From NCBI RefSeq assembly GCF_900104795.1, contig NZ_FNTG01000001.1:3534001-3598000 (forward strand): a stretch of 64,000 nt of DNA, read 5' to 3'. The DNA comes from Burkholderia sp. WP9 (GTDB lineage: Bacteria; Pseudomonadota; Gammaproteobacteria; Burkholderiales; Burkholderiaceae). Of the stretch, positions 24,772 to 64,000 are shown in pieces. Every line of letters starts with the position of its first letter. Position 1 is the first letter of the stretch. The notes beneath the pieces were generated by a model. It did not search any database. It was not told where the DNA came from and saw nothing but the letters and a program-made list of their open reading frames with translations. A program made the translations under genes and the position numbers.

Positions 24772-26556
24772 GATCGACAACAACATGACGGGTGAGTCGA
24801 GATCAAATCATGAATAGTCAGAACGCAGCTGGGACAAGCCAATCGAACGCGCAGGAAGGCAGCACCGCCGACGCAAAAGGTAGGCAGCGGCCGCTCTTCT
24901 TTTTTTATCCGGATACAGCCGAGCTTTTCGAATGCCCGGTCGAGTCCGTCGATGCCGTGGCGAAAGAGATTGCGCTGATGAGTCGGCTATCCGAGAACCT
25001 GATCGAGGCGCGGCAAGCACTGGGCGTCGCGCACGCTGCCTGGCTGGAGCAACAGGCAAATGTGGCGTTGCGTCCGCAGCTCGAAGCGAACCTGAAAGAA
25101 GCGATCAAGAAAGAAGAAGCCGCCACCGCGGAAGTTCACGAGCAACTCGAGGAGACGCCTGCCTTTAACAAGGATGGCGTATGGGAGCTTTTGCCCTTGC
25201 GCAAGACAGCGGCCGGCAAAGACAAGTACAGCGGTCAGCGCTTCACATACGTGCGGTCGTCGAAGGTGAAGAACCATTTTCGACGCTACAAGCTGGACTC
25301 CGACAAGCCCCAACTCAAATCCTTTCTCGTCAAGGACGCGACGACGGGCAACTATAAGCTGGATCACGAGAAGATCCAGGAGAAGCTCGACGAAGCGTTC
25401 AAGAAAGCGAAGCTCCACGAATGGAAGACACCGCCTTGGGGTCGCGAGTGGGCACCTGAGTTTGCAGAGGCGTTCAACAAGGCCGCCAAATTCAAATCGC
25501 CGGACGATCCCAACGCAATGTGCGAGTTCTCCGGTGGCACTCAGATCCTGCGGCTGTTCGCCGGCGCTGGCGCGAGCGCCAAAGCGGAAAGCACCATCAA
25601 GTCGTTCGACGACCTTCTGCACCTGCGCGGCGAAGTCGCTGCATCGGCGAAAGCGAAGGGTGAAGTCGGCGGAGTGCTGGCTGACGGAAACATCAAAGCC
25701 ACGCTTTATCTGCCGTGGAAATCCGGGCTTGAACTGTGGATACCGGCACCGACCGAGAGCCAGAGCGGCGCGATCTCGTGGAAGAGCACGCCCGACACCA
25801 CCCTAGGCTTCTTCAGGATCTCGCTCGCGGCAAAGGCGGAAGCTTCTTGCGGCGCCAGCCTCCTCGCGGAAGGCGGGGTCGAATTCAAACTCGGCCGCGA
25901 CGGTAAGACGCAGAAGGTTAAAGGTACCCGTGCTACTCGCAGCGCGGCGCAAATGCAGCAGCCCAAACTCGATGTCACAAAGGTCGAAGTCAAGGTTGAC
26001 GCGGGCGGTGATCTGAAGGCCTTCGCCGGCGTCGAGGCGGAGGCCTCCGTGGAGGGAGCATTCGAATGGCGACGCCCCCAGGAAAAGGTCAAATGGACCT
26101 CGTTCGCGTCCGTCAAGCCGGGCGTGAGCGGCCAGGCCGGCGCCGGCGCGCAGGCCGCGTTCCACATTACCTATAACGACAAGTTTCGCATTCTGATGAG
26201 GGCGGGCTTATGCGTCGGTGTTGGTTTGAAGGGCGAAGTGGAAGCTGCGGTCGACGTCGTCAACATGGCCGAGTTCGCCTGGTGGGCCAAAACCCAGATC
26301 GCCTATGCTGGCGACAAAAACCTTCAGTACTTCGCCAAGGATGCCTTCAAGACGTTCGTGGCGATGTACACGTTGGCGATTGCCAAGGGTAAGGAGATCG
26401 GCGCCTACGTCGGCAAACAGTTCGACGAAATGAGAACCGAGCTGACCGACTTTATCCGTACCCAGCCCCGGGCATTCCTCAACGCAATCAGGAATGCGCA
26501 CGACTCGCTGCTGAACAGTCTTGCGGAGGTAAAGGGCTATATCGTTTATGCGTTAA

Positions 26557-45486: not shown

Positions 45487-48567
<3,081 letters not shown>

Positions 48568-49360
48568 GGTCTCTCAGCGATTCTTGTTATTGGTCAGTCT
48601 ATGCGGCGTCCTGCAGCAGTGCTTCAGCTTCACTCAGACGCAGACGACCCGAGATTAGGCGTGGCAATAGCTCGTCCCGCAGATTGGCCAACGTTTTAGC
48701 CTTATGGACGTTAGCGACGATCGATTGGATCAACGGCGTCGTCACGACCCGAAAATAATCGGCTACAGGTTCTGGCGGCACTACGATAGGGTAGGCAGCA
48801 AGATCCTTCCAGTTCACGCGTGGCATCTTTGCGCCGTTGGACAGACGATCCGCATAGCCAACAAGAGGCTTGCTGAACAGATGCATTGCGACGACCGCGT
48901 AAAACGCCTGCTTCTTGGGGCGGCACACCAATATATCGGTTGAACAAACGCCGTCGAACGGTGCAACGACTACCTTGTGAAAGTAAGGACGCAGTTTGCC
49001 GAATAGGACATCGCCTTCCTTGAAACAGGATTTTGCGCTTTCCAATGCGCCAGCATTTCCCCAATCGGTAAGTGTCAACGATCGGCGGGGAATGTGTTCG
49101 AGTCCGACGTAATGAGTCGCATCATCGAGAGCCGACGGCTGGCGCTGTTCACGGGCAGTCTGTGCAAGCTCTCCCAGTACTCCAGCACGCCAACCCGCCG
49201 GAATTGGTCCAAACTCAGAATTTTCAAAGGAACCAGGGAAAAGCCGCGCAACCTCCGTATTGAAACGTCCCGGCTCCTGTCCCTCCGCTTTTGCCTGTGA
49301 GCTTGCCCCCGAAAAACGAATCCCTTGCTGAGCAGGTAAACTCAAGCAAGGAGAAGAACG

Positions 49361-49657
49361 ATGACAAGCAAGGCAAAGCGGGCACAGTACACGCTCGAGT
49401 TCAAGCTGGAAGCGGTACGACTGGTCAAAGCCGGGCAAAGCATGGCAGCAGTGGCGGCGACACTGGGTGTGGTTGAACAGACGCTGTACAACTGGGTGAA
49501 GGCTGACCGGGAAGGCAAGCTGGCGGGCGCAGGCACGAAGCCTGTGAGCCCGGAACAGATGGAGCTGGCGCGGCTGCGTGCGGAGGTAGCGCGCCTGAAG
49601 ATGGAGCGAGACATATTAAAAAAGTGCGCAGCGTACTTCGCGAAGGAATCGATGTGA
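49361..49657 (+). CDS. IS3-family transposase OrfA
   Basis: A 98-residue helix-turn-helix protein with a leucine-zipper tail (LARLRAEVARLKMERDILKK), identical in sequence to OrfA of copy 1. Alone it tends to repress; fused to OrfB by frameshifting it forms the transposase. Confidence 0.92.
   Translation: MTSKAKRAQYTLEFKLEAVRLVKAGQSMAAVAATLGVVEQTLYNWVKADREGKLAGAGTKPVSPEQMELARLRAEVARLKMERDILKKCAAYFAKESM
49618..49624 (+). promoter_or_regulatory. Programmed -1 frameshift site (A6G) in IS3 copy 2
   Basis: AAAAAAG in the 34-base overlap of orfA and orfB, at the same place as in copy 1. Expected to yield the OrfAB fusion. Confidence 0.7.
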
Positions 49658-50544
49658 AGTACGCGTTCATCGAGCACAATCGACGCCGCTGGCCAGTCTC
49701 GGTCCTATGCGAAGTGCTGGAAGTCAGTCCCAGCGGATATCATCAGCGCCGGCAACGCACCGCGCACGACAAGCCGCACCGTAGCCGCGTAAGCAACGAT
49801 GCGCTGCTCGCGCAAGTCAAGGCGATTCACATGCAGGTCAAGGGCGAATACGGCTGGCCTCGCATGTGGAAGGAGTTGCTCACGCAAGGCGTGCGCGTGG
49901 GCAAAGAACGGGTTCGCAAACTGATGGCGCAGCATGGCATTCGAGCCCGCCACAAGCGCAAGTACATCGCGACGACGAACTCGAACCACGATTTGCCGGT
50001 GGCGCCGAATCTGTTGGAGCGCGACTTCACCGCTAACGCACCGAACCAGGTCTGGACGACCGACATCACGTACCTGGCGACAGCCGAAGGCTGGGTCTAC
50101 CTCGCGGCCATCATCGACCTGTTCAGCAGGCAGGTGGTGGGCTGGTCGATGCAGCCGCACATGAAGGCTGAACTGGTCACGGACGCATTGCGAATGGCGT
50201 GGTTCCGGCGTCGCCCTGACGCCGGCGTAATCGTGCATAGCGACAGGGGCAGCCAGTATTGCAGCGGCCTGTTTCAGGACGCGTTGAAGGCCTACGGCAT
50301 GCGTTCGTCGATGAGCCGACGTGGAAATTGTTGGGATAACTCGCCGACGGAAAGTCTATGGGGTTCGCTGAAGGTAGCACGCATGCACGGACGACACTTC
50401 CCCACCCGGCGGGCAGCAATGGATGAGGTGATTGACTGGCTGGGTTTTTACAACGCGCGCCGGTTACATTCAACGCTCGATTACGTCAGCCCCATGACAT
50501 TCGAAAAGAACTGGTTCGCGGCTCATAGAGGCGAAGCCGCATAA
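49624..50544 (+). CDS. IS3-family transposase OrfB (catalytic)
   Basis: About 295-306 residues; the frame is entered by -1 slippage or from an internal start (MKYAFIEHNRRRWPV at 49655). The rve integrase core carries the DDE triad in VWTTDITYLATAEGWV, IVHSDRGSQYCSG and WDNSPTESLWGSLKVAR. It ends with the family's closing LHSTLDYVSPMTFEKNW. Intact, unlike copy 1. Confidence 0.92.
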   Translation: MRSVLREGIDVKYAFIEHNRRRWPVSVLCEVLEVSPSGYHQRRQRTAHDKPHRSRVSNDALLAQVKAIHMQVKGEYGWPRMWKELLTQGVRVGKERVRKLMAQHGIRARHKRKYIATTNSNHDLPVAPNLLERDFTANAPNQVWTTDITYLATAEGWVYLAAIIDLFSRQVVGWSMQPHMKAELVTDALRMAWFRRRPDAGVIVHSDRGSQYCSGLFQDALKAYGMRSSMSRRGNCWDNSPTESLWGSLKVARMHGRHFPTRRAAMDEVIDWLGFYNARRLHSTLDYVSPMTFEKNWFAAHRGEAA

Positions 50545-51182
50545 TTCACCCAGCTATGGGATTCGTCAAACGGGGGCAAGGTCACTGCGCCGGATCAAAA
50601 TCTACGAACCACGACTTGAATAGCGCTTGGACGATTGCCTCAAGAGTCCTGTTGGACTCTCGTAACAGATCGATTCTCGACGAAAGCGAATCTAAAATGG
50701 AGACAATTCGGTCTTGCTCGGCACGGGCGGGCGCAGCAAACTCAAGGGCTTTTATGTTGTACAGGGGAAGTTTTCCCTGAGCCGAGCCAACTGTCATTGA
50801 CCGGATCGCAGCCTGGCCAAAAGGGGATATCAAATAGTAATAAATGAACTTTGAGTTGACGCTCATATGTACCGAAGTGATTCGCGCGGCGTTTTCCGTA
50901 AGATTCACATCGTTCCACTCAGCACCCACATAGAAAACCATTCCTATCGTGTTGCCGACAATGGCCAGCCCAACATCCCCGGTGTTGACTACGTATCGTT
51001 TTATCGCGTCCCTTGTGTCAGGAGTAAGAAATTTAAGGTTTTCCCTTTGGATAGAGCCGTCGGCCACGTCGACTAATCTAATGTAAGGGAACAAAGTCGG
51101 TTGATCGATTAGCGTATGGCCGAGGGGAAGCCGCTTCCCACTTTTTACCGTAGCTATTTGTTCAACGGTGAATTTCTGCCAT

Positions 51183-52739
51183 TCAGAATTCATACCCGAG
51201 GCCCCCAAGTTTCTGCCGGATCGAAGCGTCGAGCTCCGAGCCCTTTGCCATTTGCTCGCCGAGCCGCTCGGTCAATTTCTGCATCTTTTCGGCAAAGGCT
51301 TCGTCGTCATCTTCGACATCTTCTGCACCGACATACCGACCCGGTGTCAGCACATGGCCATGTTCAGCGATTTCCTCACGCGACACGCTTCGACAGAAAC
51401 CCGGTACATCGGCATAGGCCGCTTTCGCGTCGGCACCACCGCGCCACGCATAGACGGTCTCCGCGATCCGGTCGATATCTTCATCGGCGAGCTCGATCTG
51501 CACCCGGCTCACGGACCGGCCGAGCTTGCGCGCATCGATGAACAACACCTCGCCTTTGCGAACGGACTTCTGCTTCGCGAGGAACCACAGGCACGCCGGA
51601 ATCGGCGTGTTGAAGAACAGCTGACCGGGCAGCGCGACCATGCATTCGACCACATCGGCATCGACCATTGCGGCACGGATATCACCCTCGCCGCTTTGGT
51701 TTGAACTCATTGAGCCATTCGCGAGCACGATGCCCGCGCGGCCCGCGGGCTTCAGGTGATGCAGCATGTGCTGCAGCCATGCGTAATTCGCGTTGCCCTG
51801 CGGCGGCGTACCGTACACCCAGCGTGGATCGCCCTCGAGGCTGCCATGCCACCAGTCCGACACGTTAAATGGCGGATTTGCGAGCACGAAATCCGCGCGC
51901 AGATCCGGATGCTGGTTGCGCACGAAGCTGTCGGCCGGCTCTTTACCGAAATTGAAGTCGATGTCGCGGATTGCGAGGTTCATCGCGGCAAGACGCCAAG
52001 TGGTCGGATTCGATTCCTGCCCGTAGATCGACACGTCGCCCAGCTTGCCCCCGTGCGCCTCGATGAACTTTTCGGACTGCACGAACATGCCACCCGACCC
52101 GCAGCACGGGTCATAGACCTGGCCGTGATGGGGCGCGAGCACCGCAACCAGTGTTTTGACAATGCTGGCCGGCGTATAGAACTGGCCGCCTTTCTTGCCC
52201 TCGGCGCTTGCGAACTGGCCGAGGAAATACTCGTACACCTGGCCCAGGATGTCCTTCGCGGTCGCGGTATCAGTGCCGAAGCCGATTTTCGAGACGAGGT
52301 CGACCAGCTCACCGAGCTTACCGTCGGGCAGCTGCGCGCGCGCATAGCGCTTGTCGAGCATCCCCTTGAGCTTCACGTTGTCCGCCTCGATCAGCGTCAA
52401 CGCATCATCGATCCGCTTGCCGATGTCGCCCTGCTTCGCCTGCGCGCGCAGGTTTTCCCAGCGCGCGCCTTCGGGCACCCAGAACGCGTTGACCGCGCGG
52501 TAGTAGTCGCGGTCCTCGAGCTCGCCGGCGACTACGTCCGGATCACTGTCGCCTAGGTGATACTCATCGTGTTCGTCGAGGAAACGCTTCGTCAGCTCGT
52601 CACGGCGCGCCTGGAACGCGTCGGAGATGTACTTCACAAAGATGAGCCCGAGCACGATGTGCTTGTACTCGGCTGCGTCCATGTTCGCGCGCAGCTTGTC
52701 TGCGGTGGCCCACAACGTTTTCTTGATGTCTTCGATCAT
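51183..52739 (-). CDS. hsdM: Type I restriction-modification, M (N6-adenine methyltransferase) subunit
   Basis: A 518-residue HsdM. The N-terminal helical domain starts [20 protein letters not shown]. The SAM-binding methylase core has [20 protein letters not shown], the motif I region [14 protein letters not shown] and the catalytic motif [18 protein letters not shown]. It looks intact. It is first in the operon; its stop overlaps the hsdS start. With hsdS split, methylation by this locus should be absent or altered. The type I call is firm; the subtype is not determined. Confidence 0.93.
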
Positions 52740-54225: not shown

Positions 54226-54726
54226 TCACATATCTTCGCGCCCCTCAAAAGCGCTGACGACCCAACGACTCAATTCCTCTTTGGAGTGAACCCACACGTC
54301 AACACAACCGCTAAGCATTGGATTTTGGCCCCATGGCAATACCGTTCGGATGTCAGTTTTGTAGCCAACGACGAATGCACCGACTGCTTTGCCATAGCCC
54401 AACTCTATGCAAACACCCTCGTCTAAAGCGCGGCCGTCGAGAACGGCGACGATGACGTCCGCCTCCTCGAGTGCATTTGTGTCGTGTACAAAAACCTGCT
54501 GGCAGATGGCAGCGTCGTCACGATCGCTCCCCAGCCGCAGCGACTCGACGAGCGCCCCATCGCGCTGAGGTAAATAAACTCCGCCGGCCGTTTCAAGCAG
54601 AGTGCAAAGCTCCGTGTTAAGAAGGCGTTCCGCTGGGCTGAATAGAGGCGACGCTAGATAGAACTTCGGCCGGTGGGGCAGCGGCCTTGCAAATGGCTTG
54701 AAAAGAGACTTCTTCATATTTTTCAA
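54226..54726 (-). CDS. Nucleoside 2-deoxyribosyltransferase-like protein
   Basis: Up to 166 residues. The fold signature is clear: KFYLASPLFSPAER at the start, EEADVIVAVLDGRALDEGVC with IELGYGKAVG holding the nucleophilic Glu, and VVGYKTDIR. The family cleaves or exchanges the base of deoxynucleosides; divergent members act on nucleotide signals in immune loci. It starts at TTG 54726 or ATG 54717, inside the last ~100 bases of the SIR2 gene. Such a long overlap suggests strict co-expression, or that the SIR2 frame end was shifted by a mutation. Confidence 0.82.
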   Translation of the reverse strand: MKNMKKSLFKPFARPLPHRPKFYLASPLFSPAERLLNTELCTLLETAGGVYLPQRDGALVESLRLGSDRDDAAICQQVFVHDTNALEEADVIVAVLDGRALDEGVCIELGYGKAVGAFVVGYKTDIRTVLPWGQNPMLSGCVDVWVHSKEELSRWVVSAFEGREDM

Positions 54727-56281
54727 AAAGAATGACCTCGAGGATGCGCTTGACCACTTCAGTGATCGTCATATGCGTCGTGTCGATGACGGTTACAGAA
54801 CAGGATTCACTCCACAGGGAATTGACCTTCGCAATGTGAGAGCGAAGCTGATCCAACGAGTAACGCTTTTCTCTGACCTTTAGCCGTGGCTGGAGCACCG
54901 CGGGATCACACGTGAGCATGATCAAGTGTCCAGGGGCAATGCTTGTTACGTTGCCTCCGACGGGCACCATTGCAGTTACCAATTCCTCTGCGCGCTTACC
55001 TTTCGCTGATTCATCTGCGGAAAAATAAAGCGGATCGATCGGGCTGCGATCGATCAAGGATATACCTTGGCGCACCTCGCTGATACGGCGGTTCTTTTTT
55101 CTAAACTGCAGGTTAATCCATTTGTCCACGTCTGCGCGCTGCTCGTCCGTCAGCTCTTCCTGCGGAATTACAAGCAAAGGGTTCTTACGGTCGACCCACT
55201 CGTCGAAGCTATCAAGGCAACGGATGTATTCCAACATCGTCGACTTTCCTGCCCCTACGGGGCCCGTCAAATAGTACCGAAAGCGTGTGCGAACGCCGTC
55301 TTGCTCGTCGTCGCACCGAGCGTTAAATACCTCCGAGTCAGCGACAAGCAATTTGGAAAATTCCCGCATCTCCGAAGTCGTGAAAAACAACGTTACCAAG
55401 TTATACAACGAAAAATTAGCTTCACTAAGTGCTTGCTGGTATTCCGGCGTTGGCTTCTCATCTTTGCACCAATGTACGACGTAGTGAAAATGTCCCGGGT
55501 TATTTCGGGCTGAAGTTCGCAACACATGCTTGAGCGAAGTGTCACTCACCGAAAGTCCAACGAAGACAACCGTCTGTTTAGAAAAGTGATTAAGAAGAGA
55601 CGCATAATGCCCGTCGGCTACATCGATCAACTGGTCTGCGAAGTCCTGCTCCATGAACACGATATCTTCGCTGAACCCGTCCGACAGCCGGTGGGGTAGA
55701 AAACCGTTAGGGTGATAGATGACACCTTTGTGCCTGCGAAACTGCGTTGAGGGTTTCCATACAACCTCGAAGCCCCGGTCGTCTCCGCCAGCACGGGTTT
55801 CTCCGTTGTACAGGTAAAGCAATCGCTCCACGCTGTCGTCGAAATTGTAGTTGATGGTCATCGACGACTTCTTTATCAGAGGGAGAAGATCCCACAGATA
55901 CGGATGCTGCCTTAGCCCTTCGTCGTCGACGGTCGCCCTTTCGTACAAGCACTCGTGAACTATGTGAAGCCAACTTGATGCTGCCGCGCGTCTGGCCTCG
56001 GCGGCAGTCGAACCTGCAGCAACGGCCGCAGCAACCTTGTTGCGCCGAAACTGCTGATATAACAATTGGGCTTGGATTGCGAGTCCTTCGGGCGTCACGG
56101 CCAAATGCGGCGCGTTGACTTCGCTATGTGCGGCGATGCTCACCACCAGTTCCTTCCACATTGGGAACTTGAAGTCCGCGCTGACGCCAGCGCCAAGGCA
56201 AAGCGCGAGCATGTTATCTTGATGAAGTCGCCGCCTGAGATGGACAAGCGTCTTGACGTTTTCTTGAAGGAACGAAGCCAT
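54617..56281 (-). CDS. SIR2 domain fused to nucleoside-kinase-like P-loop domain
   Basis: A 554-residue protein; start ATG 56281 chosen because AAAGGG lies 8 bases upstream. Residues ~15-310 are a SIR2-like NADase domain: ALCLGAGVSADFKFPMWKEL, TINYNFDDSVERLLYLY, IYHPNGFLPHRL and VVFVGLSVSDTSLKHVL. Residues ~345-545 are a P-loop kinase-like domain with YYLTGPVGAGKSTMLEYIR and ISLIDRSPIDPLYF, the DRS-type motif of deoxynucleoside/thymidylate kinases. A SIR2 NADase joined to a nucleoside-sensing domain and encoded with a deoxyribosyltransferase suggests a device that senses phage-altered nucleotide pools and then depletes NAD+. That mechanism is inference; the domains are well supported. Confidence 0.8.
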   Translation of the reverse strand: MASFLQENVKTLVHLRRRLHQDNMLALCLGAGVSADFKFPMWKELVVSIAAHSEVNAPHLAVTPEGLAIQAQLLYQQFRRNKVAAAVAAGSTAAEARRAAASSWLHIVHECLYERATVDDEGLRQHPYLWDLLPLIKKSSMTINYNFDDSVERLLYLYNGETRAGGDDRGFEVVWKPSTQFRRHKGVIYHPNGFLPHRLSDGFSEDIVFMEQDFADQLIDVADGHYASLLNHFSKQTVVFVGLSVSDTSLKHVLRTSARNNPGHFHYVVHWCKDEKPTPEYQQALSEANFSLYNLVTLFFTTSEMREFSKLLVADSEVFNARCDDEQDGVRTRFRYYLTGPVGAGKSTMLEYIRCLDSFDEWVDRKNPLLVIPQEELTDEQRADVDKWINLQFRKKNRRISEVRQGISLIDRSPIDPLYFSADESAKGKRAEELVTAMVPVGGNVTSIAPGHLIMLTCDPAVLQPRLKVREKRYSLDQLRSHIAKVNSLWSESCSVTVIDTTHMTITEVVKRILEVILFEKYEEVSFQAICKAAAPPAEVLSSVASIQPSGTPS

Positions 56282-56341
56282 AGGTAGCCCTTTGATATTG
56301 TTCGAACGGCGCCGCGCTCTCAGCGCCTCCAACGAGTACAT

Positions 56342-56950
56342 AAGCGATGGGCATCGGCAGCTCCATCCTATTGGCCAAATCTAAACGCCGCCACTATCTA
56401 TGTTCTCTAGCACAGTCGATCAATCGCCTCGGTGTCGTGCGAGCTTCTCGAGCGTCAAGGCCTGATGCACTAACTCCTGACGCCAGCTAGCCGCAGCATG
56501 AGCGAGTCCAATAAGTTCGACCGCGAATAGTTCCTACCGGTACAGTATCGGCGATACATTCAAATGCTTTTGACGTACTACATTCTACAAAAACTCGGCA
56601 GAGGTCTTAATCCATTATAGCTTTCGATAGCAGAACAAGCAGAAGCCGTCAGTGGCCTTCACGCAGAAGGCATAACTGTCGCGATCAGCCGCGGCGTGAC
56701 TCAGATCCCGAACTGTGGCCGGGAAGAATATTTTTGAAGCTACCGGCATTGCTCCCGCGTTGAGTCGTCGTCTGCGAGCATGGTGATGCTTTCGGCCCAA
56801 TCCAGCGATTGCCGGAAGATACATACCAGAACTGCACGTCCACCTGATAATTGACCTTCCGTCAGCGCTCCGAGTCACCCTCGGGGTAAAATGCGGTTCA
56901 GCCGAATCAAACGAAAATTACCAAATACACCATAGCCGGCGGCGATAACG
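56342..56950. other. Divergent intergenic region between the two arms of the cargo
   Basis: About 600 bases without a supported gene, between the leftward SIR2 gene and the rightward SelD-like gene, so it should hold both promoters. A minus-strand frame at 56615-56878 ends with SYAFCVKATDGFCLFCYRKL; this may be the tail of a lost gene. Base composition is lower in GC around 56520-56620. Confidence 0.4.
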
Positions 56951-57985
56951 ATGAGATTCATAGACCTTGCTACGGACGGCGGTTGTTCCAAGAAGGCAGA
57001 TGCAACTGAACTTGGGAGTTTCTTACGAACCGTTGCGGCCGCGTCAGAATCGGCCTCATTGAGGGGGCTAAGTGGGACTTTTCCAGACGTTGGGTTGTTC
57101 CGACTCGGGCAGATGAACTGCATGGCCACCGTCGATGTCCTGTTTCCGATGGTTCCAGATGCTGCAGACTTTGGCAAGATCGCCGTCAATCATGTGCTCG
57201 GCGATGTCTATGCTGCTTTCGGCATCCCGTGCTTTGCGCTCTCTGTGCTTGGGGTGCCATACGGACTCGAACCGACAAGTCCGGAAGTCATCCAGATGAT
57301 GGTGGGCTCCGTCCATGAACTGTCGCGGGCAGGGACAACACTGATCGGCGGCCACACGCTCGCGAAACAAGCCGATCTTTCGCTCGGATTCTGCGTGATC
57401 GCACAGGCAATGACTGACGCCACCGAGCCACTTCGCGGGATTAAGGAAGGTGATCCGATTTTTCTCACCAAACCGCTGGGAACCAGCATAGCGAGCCTCC
57501 TGTGGAAGCACGCCCCCCAGCTGGAGGAGGAGTTCGCGGATGTTCGGGCTTCGATGTTGGAAACCAGTCTGCCTGCTGCGCGGCTACTATATCGGCACGG
57601 GGTGACCGTCTGCACAGACGTCACAGGGTTTGGGCTGATCAACCACCTTCATCGGCTGCTGGTCCGCCTCGACAGTGCCGCGGAGATTTTTATCGATCAA
57701 CTTCCCGGCTTCGCGACGACCGAGCAATACTATGGCGAAGATCTTCCCACGACCAGCCTTTATTTTCACAACTTGAATCATGCTGCGCGGTTCGCTGATA
57801 TCAACAAAGCGTCTGGGCACGCAAAGGCTGCACTTTTGTTTGACGCGCAGGTTGCGGGCGGCTTACTGTTCGCGCTGCCTGTCGAACACGTTTTAAGGAT
57901 CCAAGACGAGTTCAAAACGTCAGGCCTTGCGATGCACTTGATAGGACGGTGCAGGAAGGGAACTGCAGGAAACGTGATCATATGA
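56951..57985 (+). CDS. Selenophosphate synthetase (SelD)-like protein
   Basis: A 344-residue AIR-synthase-family protein of normal SelD length. Compared with E. coli SelD, the catalytic Cys and Lys align (DGGCSKKA against GAGCGCKI). Also conserved are LFPMVPDAADFGKIAVNHVL, IGGHTLAK, ILTKPL-like FLTKPLGTS, CTDVTGFGLINH and DAQVAGGLLFA. SelD makes selenophosphate from selenide and ATP. No selA, selB or ybbB is near; instead the gene is coupled by ATGA to a HARE/Nudix gene inside a transposon cargo. It may make a modified nucleotide or phosphodonor for the system. The family is certain; the product is not. Confidence 0.85.
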   Translation: MRFIDLATDGGCSKKADATELGSFLRTVAAASESASLRGLSGTFPDVGLFRLGQMNCMATVDVLFPMVPDAADFGKIAVNHVLGDVYAAFGIPCFALSVLGVPYGLEPTSPEVIQMMVGSVHELSRAGTTLIGGHTLAKQADLSLGFCVIAQAMTDATEPLRGIKEGDPIFLTKPLGTSIASLLWKHAPQLEEEFADVRASMLETSLPAARLLYRHGVTVCTDVTGFGLINHLHRLLVRLDSAAEIFIDQLPGFATTEQYYGEDLPTTSLYFHNLNHAARFADINKASGHAKAALLFDAQVAGGLLFALPVEHVLRIQDEFKTSGLAMHLIGRCRKGTAGNVII

Positions 57986-58926
57986 ACCGAAAGATATCCG
58001 ACAAAGATAGCGGCGGCGTTCGAGATGATTTCGAGCTGACGGGCAAGCGTCAGATGACCTTCCTCGAGCTTGCGGAACACTACCTACGCATTGAAAACAA
58101 ACCATTGTCAGCCCGAGAGATTGTGGGCAAGGCCTTGCGCGACGGAACGCTTGTTTCTGCGGGAAAGACTCCGTGGCAGACGATGAAATCGAAGCTCTCG
58201 ACAGATATTCTCACGCACGGAGAAAGCTCTCGGTTTAAACGCGTATTCCAAGGGTCATTCGCACTAAGAGAATACGACGCCGACGAGTACGTCGCTACTC
58301 GCTTCATGAAGAGTAAGCTCGATGAGGACATCGCCGTAATTCCCCGAAGCAAGCTTGCCCAGATCGTTGACGGCGTAGGGTATTTCCCGGCTGGAATCGA
58401 TCGGTTCAAACTCTCACGGCTAGCAACCCCAATGCTACGCCGGCAGGCCGAGGAATCTTTCGACGTCGTCCAGCTTGTCTCGGTCTTCATCGTTAGGTAT
58501 CGCTCTAAGTATCTGACTCATATGCGTAGTGCACGTCTCCCGGAAAGCCGTTTGCGGGGCGAATATTCGATGATGCTTGGCGGTCACCTATCGGTCGAGG
58601 ACTTCGCTCAACTCACGCTCGACTTGTTCTCTGACGACGACGATTTGGCAGATTGCACATACATTCTGCGGGAACTGAGCGAGGAGCTCGTTGTAGACAG
58701 CGAGCCGACAATCAAGTCTTGTGGGTTTATCTACGACGACTCGCGTGTCGTTAGCACGCAGCACCTCGGCCTCGTCTACGAAGTCGTCATTGAGCGGCCA
58801 GATTTTGAGATTGGCGAAAGGGGATTTCTGCTCCATGCCAAGTTCGAGACCATCGAAGAAATTCGCGCGAGACGGGGCGAATTCGAGAATTGGTCGTGGA
58901 TATTGATGGACAGTTTCGACAAGTAA
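57982..58926 (+). CDS. HARE-HTH plus Nudix-like domain protein
   Basis: A 314-residue protein from ATG 57982, overlapping the SelD-like stop by 4 bases. Residues ~24-85 form a HARE-HTH DNA-binding domain (MTFLELAEHYLRIENKPLSA, then WQTMKSKLSTDIL). From ~115 the sequence fits predicted Nudix-like phosphoesterases: VIPRSKLAQIV, YRSKYLTHMRS, RGEYSMMLGGHLSVED, and the Nudix-box-like YILRELSEELVVD, then HLGLVYEVVI. The usual G-x5-E spacing is stretched, so hydrolase activity is uncertain. It could bind or cleave a nucleotide ligand and regulate or target DNA. This domain pair is unusual to me. Confidence 0.65.
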   Translation: MNRKISDKDSGGVRDDFELTGKRQMTFLELAEHYLRIENKPLSAREIVGKALRDGTLVSAGKTPWQTMKSKLSTDILTHGESSRFKRVFQGSFALREYDADEYVATRFMKSKLDEDIAVIPRSKLAQIVDGVGYFPAGIDRFKLSRLATPMLRRQAEESFDVVQLVSVFIVRYRSKYLTHMRSARLPESRLRGEYSMMLGGHLSVEDFAQLTLDLFSDDDDLADCTYILRELSEELVVDSEPTIKSCGFIYDDSRVVSTQHLGLVYEVVIERPDFEIGERGFLLHAKFETIEEIRARRGEFENWSWILMDSFDK

Positions 58927-58936
58927 ACAGGCAATC

Positions 58937-59767
58937 ATGAATCATTTTCTGCTTAAAAAGTTAGTCAAACTGGTCGTATTTATAACGTCCAGACATCGCA
59001 TCCTTGGCATCCGTGACTGGCTTGCGAGTTCGTTCGCGGTTTTGTTGGTGGCGCTTGCGGCTGTCAGTGGATGGATATTTTTGCTTACTGAGCGGCTTGG
59101 TGTGGGTCTCAAGCTCGCTTCGGCAGCTGCATTGATTGTGGTCCTGACAGCGGCTGTCGCCTTTGTCCCAATCGCATTTATAATAAAGCTTAGGCGCAAT
59201 GGCATAACCGACGCGGACTACAGCGTTGCGACCGGTATAGATTACAAGGGAGCGCTACGGAGCGCCCACGCAGGGTTCCAATTTCTTGGCATCGGTGCCT
59301 CAAAACTCAAGGAGAGCGAAACTGAATTGCGTACCGCGCTCGACAGCGCCCTGAAGAACGACTCAGAAATCAAGATGCTACTTGTAGATCCAAATGCTCG
59401 AAACGTCTTCACCGAGCTCGAGAGAATGGATGGCACGACCGGTTATCTAGCAAAAGCGCAAGGATCGATCAAATTCCTACAGGAATTGGCCAAACAAAAT
59501 GCGAATACCTGTTCGATCCGGCTCTATCGGCCGGCATCGGTTGACGAGGTCAAACCGTTGCGGCTGTTTTTCACCAACGACGACTGCCTAGTCAGTCCGT
59601 TTTCACCGAAAAATGGCGTTACTGATCAGGGGCGTGGCCTGCCGCAGCTAAGGATTACAGCGAAAGGTTTTCCAAAAGCTGGCGACCCAACCTTATATCG
59701 TCCGCTTAAGCGTTACTTTGACGCCCACTGGAAGGAACAGGAGACAAAAATTGAAAAAAGACGGTAG
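58937..59767 (+). CDS. Two-helix membrane protein with cytosolic domain
   Basis: A 276-residue protein, 10 bases after the Nudix-like gene. Two N-terminal membrane helices: LASSFAVLLVALAAVSGWIF and LASAAALIVVLTAAVAFVPI. A cytosolic alpha/beta domain follows (YKGALRSAHAGFQFLGIGAS, IKMLLVDPNARNVFTELERM, SIRLYRPASVDEVKPLRLFF), resembling phospholipase-D-like or related domains but without an HxK motif. Two-helix membrane modules are frequent terminal effectors or anchors in nucleotide-triggered immunity. It overlaps the next gene by 17 bases. Confidence 0.65.
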   Translation: MNHFLLKKLVKLVVFITSRHRILGIRDWLASSFAVLLVALAAVSGWIFLLTERLGVGLKLASAAALIVVLTAAVAFVPIAFIIKLRRNGITDADYSVATGIDYKGALRSAHAGFQFLGIGASKLKESETELRTALDSALKNDSEIKMLLVDPNARNVFTELERMDGTTGYLAKAQGSIKFLQELAKQNANTCSIRLYRPASVDEVKPLRLFFTNDDCLVSPFSPKNGVTDQGRGLPQLRITAKGFPKAGDPTLYRPLKRYFDAHWKEQETKIEKRR

Positions 59768-60323
59768 CGTCGACAAGGGCTGCGTTCACGGCCGATTTCA
59801 ACCACCGCATCTTGATCATATGGAATACATCTTGGCGGCGCTTGAGAAAGCTGAACACTTGATCATCGGGATCGCCCAGCCGAACGCTCCGTTCTTGGAT
59901 GACTGTGCAGCGGATCCCCATCGGGCGTTGCAAGCAGACAATCCACTAACCTACGTCGAGCGATGCATGGCCATGGAGAAGATGCTGACCGGTGTTGGCG
60001 TATCTCGTGACCGGTATTCATTTTCGCCGTTTCCTATTGACAGACCGGATGAGTTGCCGTCGCACGTCCCGACGTCGGTTCTGTGCTTTACTACAATTCG
60101 GGATGAATGGAACAAAAAGAAAATCGAAATTCTCACTGCGATCGGGTATAAGGTGCACGTGCTTTGGGACAAGAGCAGCGAGAGCGGTATCTCAGGAACC
60201 GACATAAGGCAACGCATCCGCTCTTCAGATGCGCAGTGGAAGGATCGCGTCCATCCGGCCGTTGCTGGCTATTTGGACTCTGAACACCTTCTGGACAGGA
60301 TAAAGCTCGCCTCACAGGGCTAG
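59751..60323 (+). CDS. NMNAT-like nucleotidyltransferase
   Basis: A 190-residue protein; I choose TTG 59751 because AGGAGA lies 7 bases upstream, giving a 17-base overlap with the membrane-protein gene. VHGRFQPPHLDHMEYI is the nucleotidyltransferase motif (normally HxGH; here HLDH), and SGISGTDIRQRIR is the ISxTxxR motif. Both fit the archaeal/NadM-type nicotinamide-mononucleotide adenylyltransferase group. It may rebuild NAD+ from NMN, or adenylylate a different nucleotide, given its unusual partners. The Gly-to-Asp change within HxGH is worth noting, as it could alter substrate or activity. Confidence 0.72.
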   Translation: MKKDGSVDKGCVHGRFQPPHLDHMEYILAALEKAEHLIIGIAQPNAPFLDDCAADPHRALQADNPLTYVERCMAMEKMLTGVGVSRDRYSFSPFPIDRPDELPSHVPTSVLCFTTIRDEWNKKKIEILTAIGYKVHVLWDKSSESGISGTDIRQRIRSSDAQWKDRVHPAVAGYLDSEHLLDRIKLASQG

Positions 60324-60359
60324 GGAACATAATTTCCGAGACGCTTCACGGTCAGGACT

Positions 60360-61349
60360 ATGTTACAAGGGCAATGGGAGACTTTTAATCCGTCGGGGGA
60401 AGTCCAGTTGGAGAAGGAAAGCGAAGCATCCGTGGTCGCGCCGCACCACAAAATACCGTGTGGGGTGGCCGAACGGCCCTATCAATCATTGCTTGCGGAG
60501 TGCCCGTCGGGGGGGCATATAGGTCCGCCGCGAAATGCCTCGGATCAACCTACTTCGCTAAAGTCTTTCCTCAAATGGCCCGGGGGAAAACGGTGGTTCG
60601 TCGAGAAGCACAGTGATTTTTTGCCAATCGCCATCCCAGGACGATATATCGAGCCGTTCTTGGGCGGTGGATCAGTCTTTTTCGCGCTACGTCCCAAAAC
60701 ATCGCTTCTTGCGGACGCATGTCCTGATTTGGTCTATGCCTACAGAGGCATACGCAATCAGCTTACCGAAGTCCTGAGCATATTGCGTCACCATGCGGCG
60801 TCACATGACGCAAACTATTACTATTATGTGCGCGAACAGGAGCCAGTCCGCGTCGCGGAACGCGCAGCGAGATTTATTTACCTCAATCGTACCTGCTTCA
60901 ACGGCATCTACAGGGTAAACAAACGGGGCAAGTTTAACGTGCCAATGGGATCTAGGGTGTCAGTGTTCCGGGAGGAAGATACATTCCGCCTCTGGTCTGC
61001 CGCGTTGAAAGCGGCTGAATTGCGGCTAGCAGACTTTGCAGAGGTGATTGATGAGGCCGTTGCGGGCGACTTCGTATTTGCCGACCCTCCTTACACCGTG
61101 CGACACAACAACAACGGATTTATTAAATACAACGAAGTTCTCTTCTCGTGGCACGACCAATTGCGATTGCACGAATGTTTGGTGAAAGCAAAAGCCAGAG
61201 GTGTCGACGTATTATCCACTAACGCCAATCACGAATCTGTTCGGGCTTTATATAAATCAGGGTTCACGCAGACGGTCGTGTCCCGCTATAGCTCGATTGC
61301 TGGTTCTGCTGCGCACCGAGAAAAATTCGAGGAATTAGTAATCGTGTAG
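60360..61349 (+). CDS. DNA adenine methyltransferase, Dam (D12) class
   Basis: A 329-residue protein with a ~65-residue N-terminal extension over typical Dam. Motifs: FLKWPGGKRWFVEKH (SAM-binding motif I), RYIEPFLGGGSVFFALRP, LNRTCFNGIYRVNKRGKFNV and the catalytic DFVFADPPYTVRH. It methylates N6 of adenine in DNA; the site is not predictable. It is 36 bases after the NMNAT-like gene and could mark self DNA for this system, or be an independent orphan methylase. No restriction enzyme gene is adjacent. 61350-61514 has no gene. Confidence 0.9.
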   Translation: MLQGQWETFNPSGEVQLEKESEASVVAPHHKIPCGVAERPYQSLLAECPSGGHIGPPRNASDQPTSLKSFLKWPGGKRWFVEKHSDFLPIAIPGRYIEPFLGGGSVFFALRPKTSLLADACPDLVYAYRGIRNQLTEVLSILRHHAASHDANYYYYVREQEPVRVAERAARFIYLNRTCFNGIYRVNKRGKFNVPMGSRVSVFREEDTFRLWSAALKAAELRLADFAEVIDEAVAGDFVFADPPYTVRHNNNGFIKYNEVLFSWHDQLRLHECLVKAKARGVDVLSTNANHESVRALYKSGFTQTVVSRYSSIAGSAAHREKFEELVIV

Positions 61350-61514: not shown

Positions 61515-63365
61515 CTAATATTTCGCCCCGACATTCAAAGCATTAAGCGCTTCTGAAGCAAGCTCGACGTCTCTACGGCGAAAGATGTTCTGCCGGCTAC
61601 CGTCCGTTTGCGGCCCGCAAATGGGTGATACCCCGTGATCGGAAAGAACTGCTACAACCTTCCCAACTGATAAGGACAGGGCCGCGGCAAGCTCGACTGA
61701 GAAAACATAGCGCTGCTCGAAGTCCGATATGGCGTCTGGCGTGATCAAAGTGACAGATCGACGACCATGAGCGGCGACCCGCCCTTTCAGTAAGCCCGAT
61801 TTTACCAAGTGGTATGCGACTTCCTGCTTGACACGAAGGTGGACTGCAGCTTCAGGAACCGTCATGCCGCCGACGCAACATTGTTGCCGATGCCAGTCGA
61901 GGAACACCTCATGCCCAAAAATCGCACCGGCGATTCCTCGAACACTCTCATCCCACCGCCTCACGTTGATACGCTGCTCTTGTACTGCCCGAATAAGAGC
62001 TATGAATTCCGCCCGTTGCGACAAAAAGTATTTGCTGACTTCGGCAAACGAGATCTCGCGATCTGGATGTGCTGCAACGCGGCTGCCACCTTTGAGGCTA
62101 TCGATCAACTCCAACGCCTCGCTTCGCCTGAAAAGCGATGTCGAGACCAGTCCATGCGTCACGGGTTTTCGTTTCAGGAGGCCTACATCGGCGAGTTGTT
62201 CTACTCGCGACGTCGAAATTCCAAGAAGTAAGCTCATCTTCCGAAGGCTGATTTTATCGGAGAGTTCTTGCTTAAGTGACGAAAGAGCTGTCCGCTCGAT
62301 TAGAGTGAAGTGACGTCGGGTTCCTCCAGGCTTTTTGATCTCCGTGACACCGACACGTGCGGTCAAGGCGTGTAGTGTCGCAGCCCGAATTCCAAGTTGG
62401 CGTGCGGCGACAGCTGCCGCGACATATGCCTGAGATTGAATGTCGCCCTCGGTTGCCCAACCTCGTCTTCGGTCTAGAGTGTCCACGGACTCGTCACGCA
62501 TGTATCCACGGAATCCGTCGAGGAGAAAGTTCAGATCCGGAGGGAGCTCGTCAAATAAAAATTTCTTCAGTCGGCGCAGGCGAGGCGACATGACAGCGGT
62601 ACCCTCAGTTGATCGCTCTTCTTCGCGCAGGAAGTCGTGAAACTTCAGCGGCCAGTCGGTCAAGCGTGAATAAGCGGCAGATACCAGCCGAGAAGTTTCC
62701 GACAACGTAAGGTTCCGCCACGCTTTGGGCGACAGCATGTACTCGGTCGTATCCGTCGTCGCGCCGAGATGGGAAATCAACGACGCAACAGAAGGTAAGC
62801 AGAGGTCATCGATCGCACTCACTTGTGGCCTGTTGGCGTCTTGCTGGACACCCGTCGCTGTCACAAACGCGCGCCAAATATGCTGACCGGCGTCGACGCT
62901 AGCGCGGCTCGCTTCGATTTGTTTCCATGATGCAATCTCACTCCCGCAGCGGCATCTCATTGTTGACGCTCGCCTCCAACAGAGTTTGGTTCCGCATGTT
63001 GCGCACGTATCGATCAGCTCTAAACCGTGTTCGTGGCAAGCAACGTACAGTCGATGTTCCCATATCGCTCGCCAGTACGGCGTCGCCAGCAAGCAGGCCA
63101 CGCAGCATTTTGCTCGCAGACCGAGACAAAAATTTTTATCGAAGGGAGGCGGAGCTACGGCGGGTGTTTCAGGCTCACCGAGCCATTTGGGTACGAAGCC
63201 GAAAATGGTAGTACCCACGCACTCCCGAAGTTGCGCTTGGAGACCATCAACGCGCCGTAACCACTCGATACCCGGGTATGCGTTTGCTTCCGCTAATCGC
63301 AAAAGAAACCCCTGCACGCTCTCGAAAAGGTAAGGTGACGGCAGGTTGATCAATGGCACTCGCAT
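61515..63365 (-). CDS. tniQ: TniQ/TnsD-type target-selection protein
   Basis: A 616-residue protein. The N-terminus (LPSPYLFESVQGFLLRLAEA) and the paired zinc motifs (KCCVACLLATPYWRAIWEHR, YVACHEHGLELIDTCATCGT) are those of TniQ. The C-terminal half has several helix-turn-helix-like segments (ISLRKMSLLLGISTSRVEQL; PEAAVHLRVKQEVAYHLVKS), longer than minimal TniQ and closer to TnsD-size proteins, fitting a DNA-sequence-specific targeting role. It follows the partial tniB gene by 12 bases on the minus strand and marks the transposition module of the element that carries the defence-like cargo. Confidence 0.85.
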   Translation of the reverse strand: MRVPLINLPSPYLFESVQGFLLRLAEANAYPGIEWLRRVDGLQAQLRECVGTTIFGFVPKWLGEPETPAVAPPPFDKNFCLGLRAKCCVACLLATPYWRAIWEHRLYVACHEHGLELIDTCATCGTKLCWRRASTMRCRCGSEIASWKQIEASRASVDAGQHIWRAFVTATGVQQDANRPQVSAIDDLCLPSVASLISHLGATTDTTEYMLSPKAWRNLTLSETSRLVSAAYSRLTDWPLKFHDFLREEERSTEGTAVMSPRLRRLKKFLFDELPPDLNFLLDGFRGYMRDESVDTLDRRRGWATEGDIQSQAYVAAAVAARQLGIRAATLHALTARVGVTEIKKPGGTRRHFTLIERTALSSLKQELSDKISLRKMSLLLGISTSRVEQLADVGLLKRKPVTHGLVSTSLFRRSEALELIDSLKGGSRVAAHPDREISFAEVSKYFLSQRAEFIALIRAVQEQRINVRRWDESVRGIAGAIFGHEVFLDWHRQQCCVGGMTVPEAAVHLRVKQEVAYHLVKSGLLKGRVAAHGRRSVTLITPDAISDFEQRYVFSVELAAALSLSVGKVVAVLSDHGVSPICGPQTDGSRQNIFRRRDVELASEALNALNVGAKY

Positions 63366-63377
63366 GTGAGTACTCCT

Positions 63378-64000
63378 TCAATAACGGCGTCGTGCACCCC
63401 GGGTTTCACCTCGACGACTTGTGGGCGCAAAGGGCTCGCCTGGTTGATCCAGGCGACGAAATGAAAATCTTGAATGGAATGGATTTAGTTCTTCCTGCCC
63501 ACCCCTCCAGATTTCTTGAACGAAAGCCTCCTGTAGCAAGGCTCGGTCAATGCTGCATTGGTTCGCAGCCTCCATCAATTCATAGGCACCAGTTGTCAAC
63601 CGTCTGACGTACCCAATAAGGCCGTTGGTCGCCATGTATATCCGACGAGCGGTTTCAGGCTCAGCAAGGCCTGAACGACGTCGACAGGGAAGCATTTCGT
63701 CCAAGGCATTCAATATTGACCGGAACTCCACTTCTTCCTCGTCACGCTCGATTGAGAACGGAAGAAGTTCTATGCGAGCAGAGAATCGGCGCCTCAGTTG
63801 CTCGTTAAGCGTAAGAATGGCCGTCGATCTTGGTAGGCCCATCAGCAAACATGGTATTTGCGCGTCTTCGACGAAATTCTTCAGCCAGTCAGCTACCGAT
63901 TGAGGTGAATTGTGGGAGCCATGGTCGAGGAAATGCTGAAGCTCATCAACGATGAGCATCTGCACCTGGCACTGGCGAATGAGCGCCAACGCCCTTAGCC
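63378..64000 (-). CDS. tniB: TniB/TnsC-type AAA+ transposition ATPase (5' end outside window)
   Basis: The frame is open to the window end. The visible 3' part has the Walker B strand QVQMLIVDELQHFLDHG, sensor-like CLLMGLPRSTAIL and RRRFSARIELLPF with the arginine finger region; Walker A lies outside. TniB assembles on DNA and brings the TniA transposase to the site chosen by TniQ. tniA should lie to the right of the window. Confidence 0.88.
   Translation of the reverse strand, partial: LRALALIRQCQVQMLIVDELQHFLDHGSHNSPQSVADWLKNFVEDAQIPCLLMGLPRSTAILTLNEQLRRRFSARIELLPFSIERDEEEVEFRSILNALDEMLPCRRRSGLAEPETARRIYMATNGLIGYVRRLTTGAYELMEAANQCSIDRALLQEAFVQEIWRGGQEELNPFHSRFSFRRLDQPGEPFAPTSRRGETRGARRRY

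Follow-up and report, generated by a model that had tools for sequence, protein, structure and literature searches.

A mobile five-gene cassette of Burkholderia sp. WP9 joins a SelD-like enzyme to an NMNAT-like nucleotidyltransferase and may act in phage immunity

Gene content of the locus

We analysed a stretch of 64,000 nucleotides from the 9.0-Mb, seven-contig genome of Burkholderia sp. WP9 (contig NZ_FNTG01000001.1, positions 3,534,001 to 3,598,000; hereafter the window, to which coordinates given without a locus name refer). The five rightward genes examined in it, encoding a SelD-like enzyme, a HARE-Nudix protein, a two-helix membrane protein, an NMNAT-like nucleotidyltransferase and a Dam methylase, are one mobile cassette, and the leftward SIR2/deoxyribosyltransferase pair is an independent neighbouring module of two genes. 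An earlier reading of the letters alone (the sequence-only reading) had presented the seven genes as one two-arm immunity cluster. All seven genes were recovered where it had placed them, and their names are backed by Pfam, NCBIfam and PDB profile searches, as follows:

56951-57985, plus strand: SelD-like "X, water dikinase" of 344 amino acids (TIGR00476, 175.5 bits)
57982-58926 (open reading frame from 57949), plus strand: HARE-HTH and Nudix-type protein (HARE-HTH, 1.5e-10; Tm1382, 2.9e-10)
58937-59767, plus strand: two-helix membrane protein with a soluble alpha/beta C-terminal domain, candidate sensor or effector (hydropathy)
59718-60323, plus strand: NadM/NMNAT-like nucleotidyltransferase of a distinct subfamily (CTP_transf_like, 3.9e-7; 1f9a, 5.3e-26 by profile)
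60360-61349, plus strand: Dam-family adenine methylase, conserved from about residue 66 (TIGR00571, 206.8 bits, cut-off 114.85)
56342-56950, no strand: divergent intergenic region between both arms, 609 bases (reading-frame coordinates)
54617-56341, minus strand: SIR2-like and P-loop kinase-like fusion, neighbouring separable module (Pfam SIR2_2, 2.5e-11)
54226-54726, minus strand: nucleoside deoxyribosyltransferase, partner of the SIR2 fusion (Pfam Nuc_deoxyrib_tr, 5e-17)
61515-63365, minus strand: TniQ of the carrying Tn7-like element, context outside the cassette (Pfam TniQ, 5.8e-7)

The arms diverge from a common intergenic region and their genes are tightly arranged, just as the sequence-only reading had described. 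The rightward genes are close-packed or overlapping, and the SelD-like stop overlaps the first codon of the HARE-Nudix gene as ATGA; the ATG at 57982 is a likelier start for this gene than the opening of its reading frame at 57949.

Recurrence of the rightward cassette

The complete rightward set was found again in G454, a genome from another genus of the same family, where the SelD-like, HARE-Nudix, two-helix, NMNAT-like and Dam genes stand in identical order (locus L008, 7986-12352), with respective identities to the window proteins of 49, 73, 57, 68 and 56%. The 19.5 kb listed there contain no reading frame for a SIR2 fusion. The association of the rightward genes goes beyond chance, because a different genus of this family has the full order with identities of 49-73%. 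The SelD-like/HARE-Nudix pair was accordingly found in a second genus.

A Bryobacterales locus (L011) carries the HARE-Nudix, two-helix, NMNAT-like and Dam genes (53, 30, 37 and 44% identity); no SelD lies within the 10 kb before or the approximately 2 kb after this cluster, and the genome has a housekeeping SelD elsewhere. The viral contig L043 holds a Nudix/two-helix/NMNAT-like trio (35, 24 and 39% identity). This trio is the core of four distinct loci, accompanied by Dam in three, by HARE in three and by SelD in two.

Few of the sampled genomes have the cassette. Searches with the SelD-like protein matched 2/398 genomes of the family, and those with the HARE-Nudix protein matched one of 398 genomes of the phylum and one of 399 of the order, the window itself each time, as well as 6/247 genomes of the phylum of Bryobacterales (one nearly full-length match, at the known locus, and five partial ones); the genome draws overlap and these counts are not additive. 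A scan of genome contigs, which works on short exact patterns so that divergent relatives would escape it, returned one locus, and scans of viral contigs with single proteins and with the alignment A3 led nowhere. Other matches were to Nudix only or HARE only (L026-L030 and L048; L007 and L051 were judged by annotation). At L007 (5803-6441), on a Bacillus velezensis plasmid, a NUDIX gene matching the Nudix half of the window protein (33% identity over 45%) has ribonucleotide reductase genes on one side and a diadenylate cyclase gene on the other.

The SelD-like protein

The SelD-like protein belongs to the SelD family by profile, its match to the NCBIfam model TIGR00476 reaching 175.5 bits against a cut-off of 125. 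It falls below the stricter PRK00943 model (136 against 299), and NF038049 (SelD_rel_HyperS) is not among its NCBIfam matches at E values up to 1. A PDB profile search, whose query included the housekeeping SelD of the host, matched SelD 3u0o at 8e-85. Residues C12, K15, D46, D62, D85, D223 and G133-G134-H135 are identical in 13/13 aligned SelDs, three of which are near-identical Rhodococcus copies; we take the catalytic residues of Escherichia coli SelD to be C17, K20, D51, D68, D91 and D227.

The protein might simply be an ordinary selenophosphate synthetase that was carried along and feeds selenocysteine or selenouridine, as its score above the TIGR00476 cut-off and its intact active-site residues would allow. 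We consider this very unlikely on the following grounds. First, the host already possesses an ordinary SelD (G000:C2:1360886), located beside selU with selA about 7 kb off, so that the cassette gene was ruled out as the housekeeping selD. Second, in the tree of the 13 SelDs the window and G454 proteins, which share 49% identity, group together (support 1.0) as a separate clade with the longest branch, apart from the host copy, to which the window protein is 28% identical. Third, no SelD other than the cluster copy exceeds the family cut-off in G454 (99% complete, two contigs), and neither SelA nor SelU was matched in that genome (the selenium-cofactor genes YqeB/YqeC were not looked for). From the lack of SelA and SelU matches, the cluster copy of G454 appears not to be there to feed selenocysteine or selenouridine. 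The suggestion that the SelD-like gene stands apart from housekeeping SelD therefore held, G454 being the only other genome found with this gene.

Two further selU matches lie on contig C5 of the host, a second at 110021-110818 and a third at 24365-25286, the latter broken into two adjoining pieces.

The NMNAT-like enzyme and its recurring partners

The nearest solved relatives of the NMNAT-like protein, identified with a profile of nine homologues, are archaeal NMN adenylyltransferases. The ATP-site motifs of the fold are kept in the window protein as GRFQPPHLDH, NPLTYVER and SGTDIR. The curated cut-offs for NadM are missed (PRK01153, 51 bits against 127; arch_NMN_Atrans, 37.7 against 181.2). 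We studied the family through an alignment of 9 members and a tree of 14.

Among 72,556 plasmid records, 16 matched the NMNAT-like protein (14 judged by annotation; H10 and H12 by coordinates), and on all 16 the gene directly next to it encodes a SelD (5), a SelD relative (7) or a PEP-synthase-like protein (4). None of 50,697 phage records matched at E 1e-5, and 3/329 genomes did in a phylum search.

The five SelD cases are Rhodococcus plasmids, in which SelD directly precedes the NMNAT-like gene. In the three that were opened, an acyl-CoA dehydrogenase gene comes before SelD, and in 2/3 a gene of the "alkaline phosphatase family" follows; the one scanned with Pfam is phosphomutase-like. These operons lie at L015 4669-8865, L059 2739-6779 and L062 1669-5865, and the phosphatase-family gene of L059, annotated only as hypothetical, is beside an IS3 transposase. 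On seven haloarchaeal plasmids, a "hypothetical" gene directly before the NMNAT-like gene encodes the SelD relative: three of these proteins match NF038049 (1e-36, 2e-34 and 8e-51, all under the cut-off of the model), and the four others are 49-52% identical to one of the three. Six Halobaculum operons (L016 3053-7585, L063 and L065-L068) begin with an acyl-CoA dehydrogenase gene and a phosphatase-family or unnamed gene, the first two genes of L016 being 41% and 35% identical to those of Rhodococcus. The operon of acyl-CoA dehydrogenase, phosphatase-family, SelD-type and NMNAT-like genes, in which the order and the SelD type vary, is a candidate for an undescribed selenium or sulfur metabolite pathway.

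In Enterococcus, Treponema, R. opacus and R. pyridinivorans, domain searches placed a PEP-synthase-like gene directly after the NMNAT-like gene, these proteins being named mainly from their ATP-binding domain. On the Treponema saccharophilum plasmid (L013 6980-11343), the run comprises viperin (PADLOC 9.4e-67), NMNAT-like, PEP-synthase-like and DndA/SspA-type cysteine desulfurase (1e-106) genes. At the R. opacus locus L014, a radical SAM gene takes the place of the Treponema viperin, with MoaA as its best match and only a partial match to viperin.

In two further genomes, G018 and G133, SelD belongs to the gene run of the NMNAT-like protein with three genes between them; the SelD frame listed for G133 covers only the C-terminal 256 amino acids (28% identity to the window protein). 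The eight-gene run found in two genomes of one genus (L040 330-9893 and L041 4072-13584) encodes ligase-like (by eye), SelD, adenosine-deaminase-like and kinase-like (by eye) proteins, a protein without a Pfam match, a HAD domain fused to an NMNAT-like domain, and Hsp70-like and radical-SAM-like proteins (by eye), and it looks like a natural-product cluster using SelD.

Altogether, we counted 22 NMNAT-like loci (the 16 plasmids, G018, G133, the window, G454, Bryobacterales and L043), of which 16 have a SelD or SelD relative, 4 a PEP-synthase-like gene and 2 neither; excluding the query window, 19/21 have a dikinase-type partner. This count is not a probability because it stems from about five lineages (by the tree, in which the trio members were joined with low support). 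Of the four viral loci with the NMNAT-like protein it leaves out three, L042 (a second contig of the L043 type, partial comparison), L044 (an NMNAT-Nudix fusion, 28%) and L045 (37 residues).

SelD and PEP synthase both catalyse X + ATP + H2O -> X-P + AMP + Pi. One nucleotidyltransferase thus has, as alternative neighbours, two unrelated enzyme classes that share their chemistry, which suggests that the phosphorylated product may be the acceptor of the nucleotidyltransferase. The pairing with SelD or a SelD relative recurs in other bacteria and in haloarchaea and so lends indirect support to the proposal that an unusual nucleotide would be the joint product of the SelD-like and NMNAT-like enzymes.

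The same pairing can be read without any immunity, in that the cassette would be a selenium- or sulfur-metabolite biosynthesis unit yielding a cofactor or a detoxification product, with a membrane protein that exports or senses it and with incidental mobility. The metabolism-like operons of Rhodococcus, haloarchaea and G018, which contain the same enzyme pair, argue for it, as does the thiophosphate synthesis proposed earlier for a SelD-like family of archaea (PMC4210487). On the other hand, neither a dehydrogenase nor any other tailoring enzyme was recognised in the cassette, one would hardly expect a Dam methylase and a HARE domain in a metabolite pathway, and the window, G454 and viral-contig loci are in mobile or defence-like DNA, the Bryobacterales one following toxin-antitoxin-like genes (by eye). 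We regard this reading as doubtful, well short of an even chance.

The HARE-Nudix, two-helix and Dam proteins

Pfam detected no Nudix domain in the C-terminal half of the HARE gene. The Nudix-like half announced by the sequence-only reading came to light through a profile of three homologues, which matched Tm1382 (3e57), presumably a Nudix protein, at 2.9e-10; the Nudix REL-EE motif is kept in 4/4 HARE-Nudix or Nudix homologues.

The two-helix protein has hydrophobic peaks at residues 33-51 and 65-83 and a soluble C-terminal half (hydropathy), and the same layout, two or more strongly hydrophobic segments plus a soluble half, is seen in all four homologues, from the window and three other loci. 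Its AlphaFold model has a pLDDT of 63 overall, with block means of 68-87 for residues 111-220, 70-87 for residues 251-276 and below 52 for residues 221-250. A phospholipase-D-like label given by eye to the soluble half was withdrawn; since PDB profile searches found nothing significant, we call this half only an alpha/beta domain.

When a profile was built from the soluble half, it matched the C-terminal region of the protein encoded directly before the nucleotidyltransferase on the R. opacus and R. pyridinivorans plasmids (hhalign probability 96.8, with E 2.3e-10 valid for one comparison; hmmsearch E values of 8e-6 and 1.4e-5 for the two proteins, assuming a search space of 5,000). In the R. 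opacus protein this domain is fused to a part with a weak match (8.7e-4, just below the cut-off) to the transcriptional-activator domain BTAD, and no membrane helix is predicted in these Rhodococcus regulator-like proteins. That the same domain is joined once to a membrane part and elsewhere to a regulator-like part is as would be expected if it were a ligand-reading domain. A plasmid search with the R. opacus regulator-like protein matched R. opacus itself and R. pyridinivorans and no other record, plasmid searches with the two-helix proteins gave zero matches, and neither protein matched PHROGs.

The Dam homologues hold the same position in the G454 and Bryobacterales loci, and the window protein matched methylase models of PADLOC and, more weakly, PD-Lambda-5_B (7.8e-8). 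In another reading, HARE and Dam act on DNA in a modification or restriction-type system, for which the SelD-like and NMNAT-like enzymes would provide the activated group of an unusual DNA or nucleotide modification. In its favour, 3/4 loci have Dam next to the core and the fourth has an Eco57I-type methylase gene about 0.9 kb downstream of it, the nucleotidyltransferase of Treponema is accompanied by a DndA/SspA-type cysteine desulfurase, and HARE has been reported to be fused to restriction endonucleases (PMC12839542). We nevertheless judge such a system decidedly unlikely, for Pfam, PADLOC and NCBIfam recognised no nuclease, glycosylase or base-modifying enzyme in the cassette, and the two-helix membrane protein would have no obvious role in it.

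Separability of the SIR2 arm

The SIR2 half of the leftward fusion stood up to the family searches (SIR2_2), whereas the nucleoside-kinase-like label of the other half is weak, because AAA_18 (8e-5) and dNK (9e-4) both fall below the Pfam cut-off. In PADLOC, the fusion matches ThsA and LmuA weakly over residues 32-77, and mad3 at 0.014. It was detected in 1/215 genomes of the family, that of the window. The fusion and the deoxyribosyltransferase occur without the SelD arm on an Eleftheria plasmid and on a Rhizobium plasmid, where the pair lies behind a KAP-NTPase gene; the fusion is 52% and 38% identical to these homologues, and no further plasmid records matched. The two plasmid loci are L004 8861-11019 and L006 4348-10096.

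The sequence-only reading held that both arms form one system, in which what the SelD arm makes would set off NAD depletion by the SIR2 arm, and the 609-base region common to the divergent arms in the window speaks for it. The SIR2-kinase/deoxyribosyltransferase pair was, however, beside none of the three other trio loci, the SIR2 gene of L043 being of the different SIR2-HerA kind, and the SelD arm was at neither of the two plasmid loci of the pair. In this small sample the arms co-occur nowhere else, which had been set beforehand as a refuting outcome; the single two-arm system was rejected, and we hold it to be highly improbable. Since the arms are separable, NAD+ depletion is probably not the output of the SelD arm.

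Mobile and defence setting

TniQ-, TnsC-, TnsB- and TnsA-like genes follow in a row beside the cassette, and then gyrB (by eye); with these four genes adjoining, the cassette is cargo of a Tn7-like element. Genes of the element lie at 61515-63989 of the window and at 3516-12095 of L009, and a 14-mer search found no ends of it. A type I restriction-like set lies at 45487-52739 of the window (HsdR-like 45487-48567, specificity-like pieces, HsdM-like 51183-52739; by eye), with an IS3-type transposase pair within it at 49361-50544 (by eye).

In G454, a comM-like gene is interrupted by approximately 43 kb of DNA, in which the cluster lies; the C-terminal half of this gene is at 223264-223812 (supported by Pfam) and its N-terminal half at 266506-267564 (recognised by motif). 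Close to the cluster are three genes that look recombinase-like by eye, one of which matches Phage_integrase just below the cut-off and one of which has no match. A SIR2-HerA pair (PADLOC 1e-126 and 3e-241) is found 1.7 kb from the viral trio, which has the Eco57I-type methylase with a HATPase on its other side. The viperin gene in the Treponema run is a further hint of defence.

As the setting is mobile, defence-rich DNA, the cassette is probably anti-phage. The comparison with PADLOC-DB 2.0.0 (2023) agreed with the view that a set with a SelD homologue looks undescribed: the SelD-like, HARE-Nudix, two-helix and NMNAT-like proteins matched no family at E values up to 1. No model of CD-NTase, mCpol, TIR (ThsB) or Cas10 was matched by the cassette proteins in Pfam and PADLOC, and ThsA models gave weak matches, confined to the SIR2 gene in the leftward arm.

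Proposed working of the cassette

From these lines of evidence, we tentatively propose, at somewhat less than an even chance, that the SelD-like and NMNAT-like enzymes make a small conjugate that the two-helix protein reads and the Nudix protein removes or monitors, the five genes probably serving against phages. Given its intact catalytic residues, the SelD-like enzyme would use ATP to put a phosphate onto a small acceptor, likeliest sulfide or selenide, yielding thio- or selenophosphate; SelD itself, the desulfurase and the earlier thiophosphate proposal suggest by analogy a sulfur or selenium acceptor. The NMNAT-like enzyme would join this phosphate to a nucleotide from an NTP, forming a small nucleotide conjugate. 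The soluble domain of the two-helix protein would bind the conjugate and gate a membrane-damaging or signalling response, the HARE-Nudix protein would hydrolyse or monitor the conjugate, perhaps tied to DNA through HARE, and Dam would mark the host DNA. We also consider a wider idea, unlikely in our judgement, that there is an unrecognised bacterial and archaeal nucleotide pathway built on a water dikinase (SelD, a SelD relative or a PEP-synthase-like enzyme), which would phosphorylate an acceptor, possibly to thio- or selenophosphate, and a NadM-fold enzyme, the product of the cassette being an immune messenger read by the two-helix protein and removed by the Nudix protein. Selenium or sulfur chemistry would in that case have a part in phage immunity.

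Several observations weigh against the proposed working. First, only four distinct trio loci are known, SelD is absent from two of them, and HARE is missing from the viral-contig trio. Second, the other contexts of SelD with the NMNAT-like protein (the Rhodococcus acyl-CoA dehydrogenase operons and the G018 eight-gene run) look metabolic rather than defensive. Third, the Halorussus SelD relative, which matches NF038049, was missed by our own SelD profile (E 0.27). Fourth, profile searches found no significant relative of the two-helix protein in the PDB; its fold is unconfirmed and its model is modest. Fifth, the cassette proteins include no recognisable nuclease or phage sensor.

If the proposed working is true, a SelD with its active site intact serves a purpose other than those known for selenium, and there is a small-molecule signal whose chemistry is not known in immunity. 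The pairing of the nucleotidyltransferase with SelD-type or PEP-synthase-type genes in Pseudomonadota, Actinomycetota, Bacillota, Spirochaetota and Halobacteria makes its product a defined biochemical question, and orphan SelD genes gain a new candidate partner.

Comparison with known systems

An open full-text word search, outside of which most subscription papers lie, found no description of a SelD homologue in a defence system. Four known cases come close to parts of the cassette. First, orphan SelD genes have been tied to selenium-dependent molybdenum hydroxylases (PMC2276186). The SelD of G454, without selenocysteine or selenouridine machinery, resembles them, whereas the genes around it encode HARE-Nudix, two-helix and NMNAT-like proteins. 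Second, the archaeal family proposed to make thiophosphate (PMC4210487) presumably corresponds, by name and description, to NF038049 SelD_rel_HyperS. Like it, the cassette has a SelD relative outside the known selenium traits, and haloarchaeal relatives (below the cut-off) adjoin the same nucleotidyltransferase family; unlike it, the window protein matches the classical SelD model TIGR00476. Third, among prokaryotic viperin operons, that of Treponema has the same nucleotidyltransferase family, together with PEP-synthase-like, cysteine desulfurase and viperin genes, while the window cassette has no radical SAM gene.

Fourth, in NadM, an NMN adenylyltransferase is fused to a Nudix domain (PMC9503650). 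The cassette likewise pairs an NMNAT-fold transferase with a Nudix protein, and GRFQPxHxxH, NPxTxxER and SGTxIR-like motifs are kept in the window protein and in the family consensus; its genes are separate, its Nudix type is different, and most family members have an extra DPHR-like segment. In addition, the DIE...W stretch of true NMNATs, whose W we take to contact nicotinamide, reads PFPI..P in the NMNAT-like family.

In organisation the cassette is like Panoptes (OptS and OptE) and CBASS, where the neighbour of the nucleotide synthase is a two-helix protein by which the product is read (PMC12657218). The cassette, in its defence-rich setting, would likewise have a small nucleotide-making enzyme next to a two-helix protein, the proposed reader. 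It differs from both in having no mCpol or CD-NTase, the candidate synthase being the SelD-like and NadM-like pair, and in that Pfam and PADLOC matched no CARF, SAVED or S-2TM-beta domain in it. By analogy with Panoptes and CBASS, the cassette would be a variant of the theme of a synthase and its two-helix reader, with a chemistry that would be new if confirmed.

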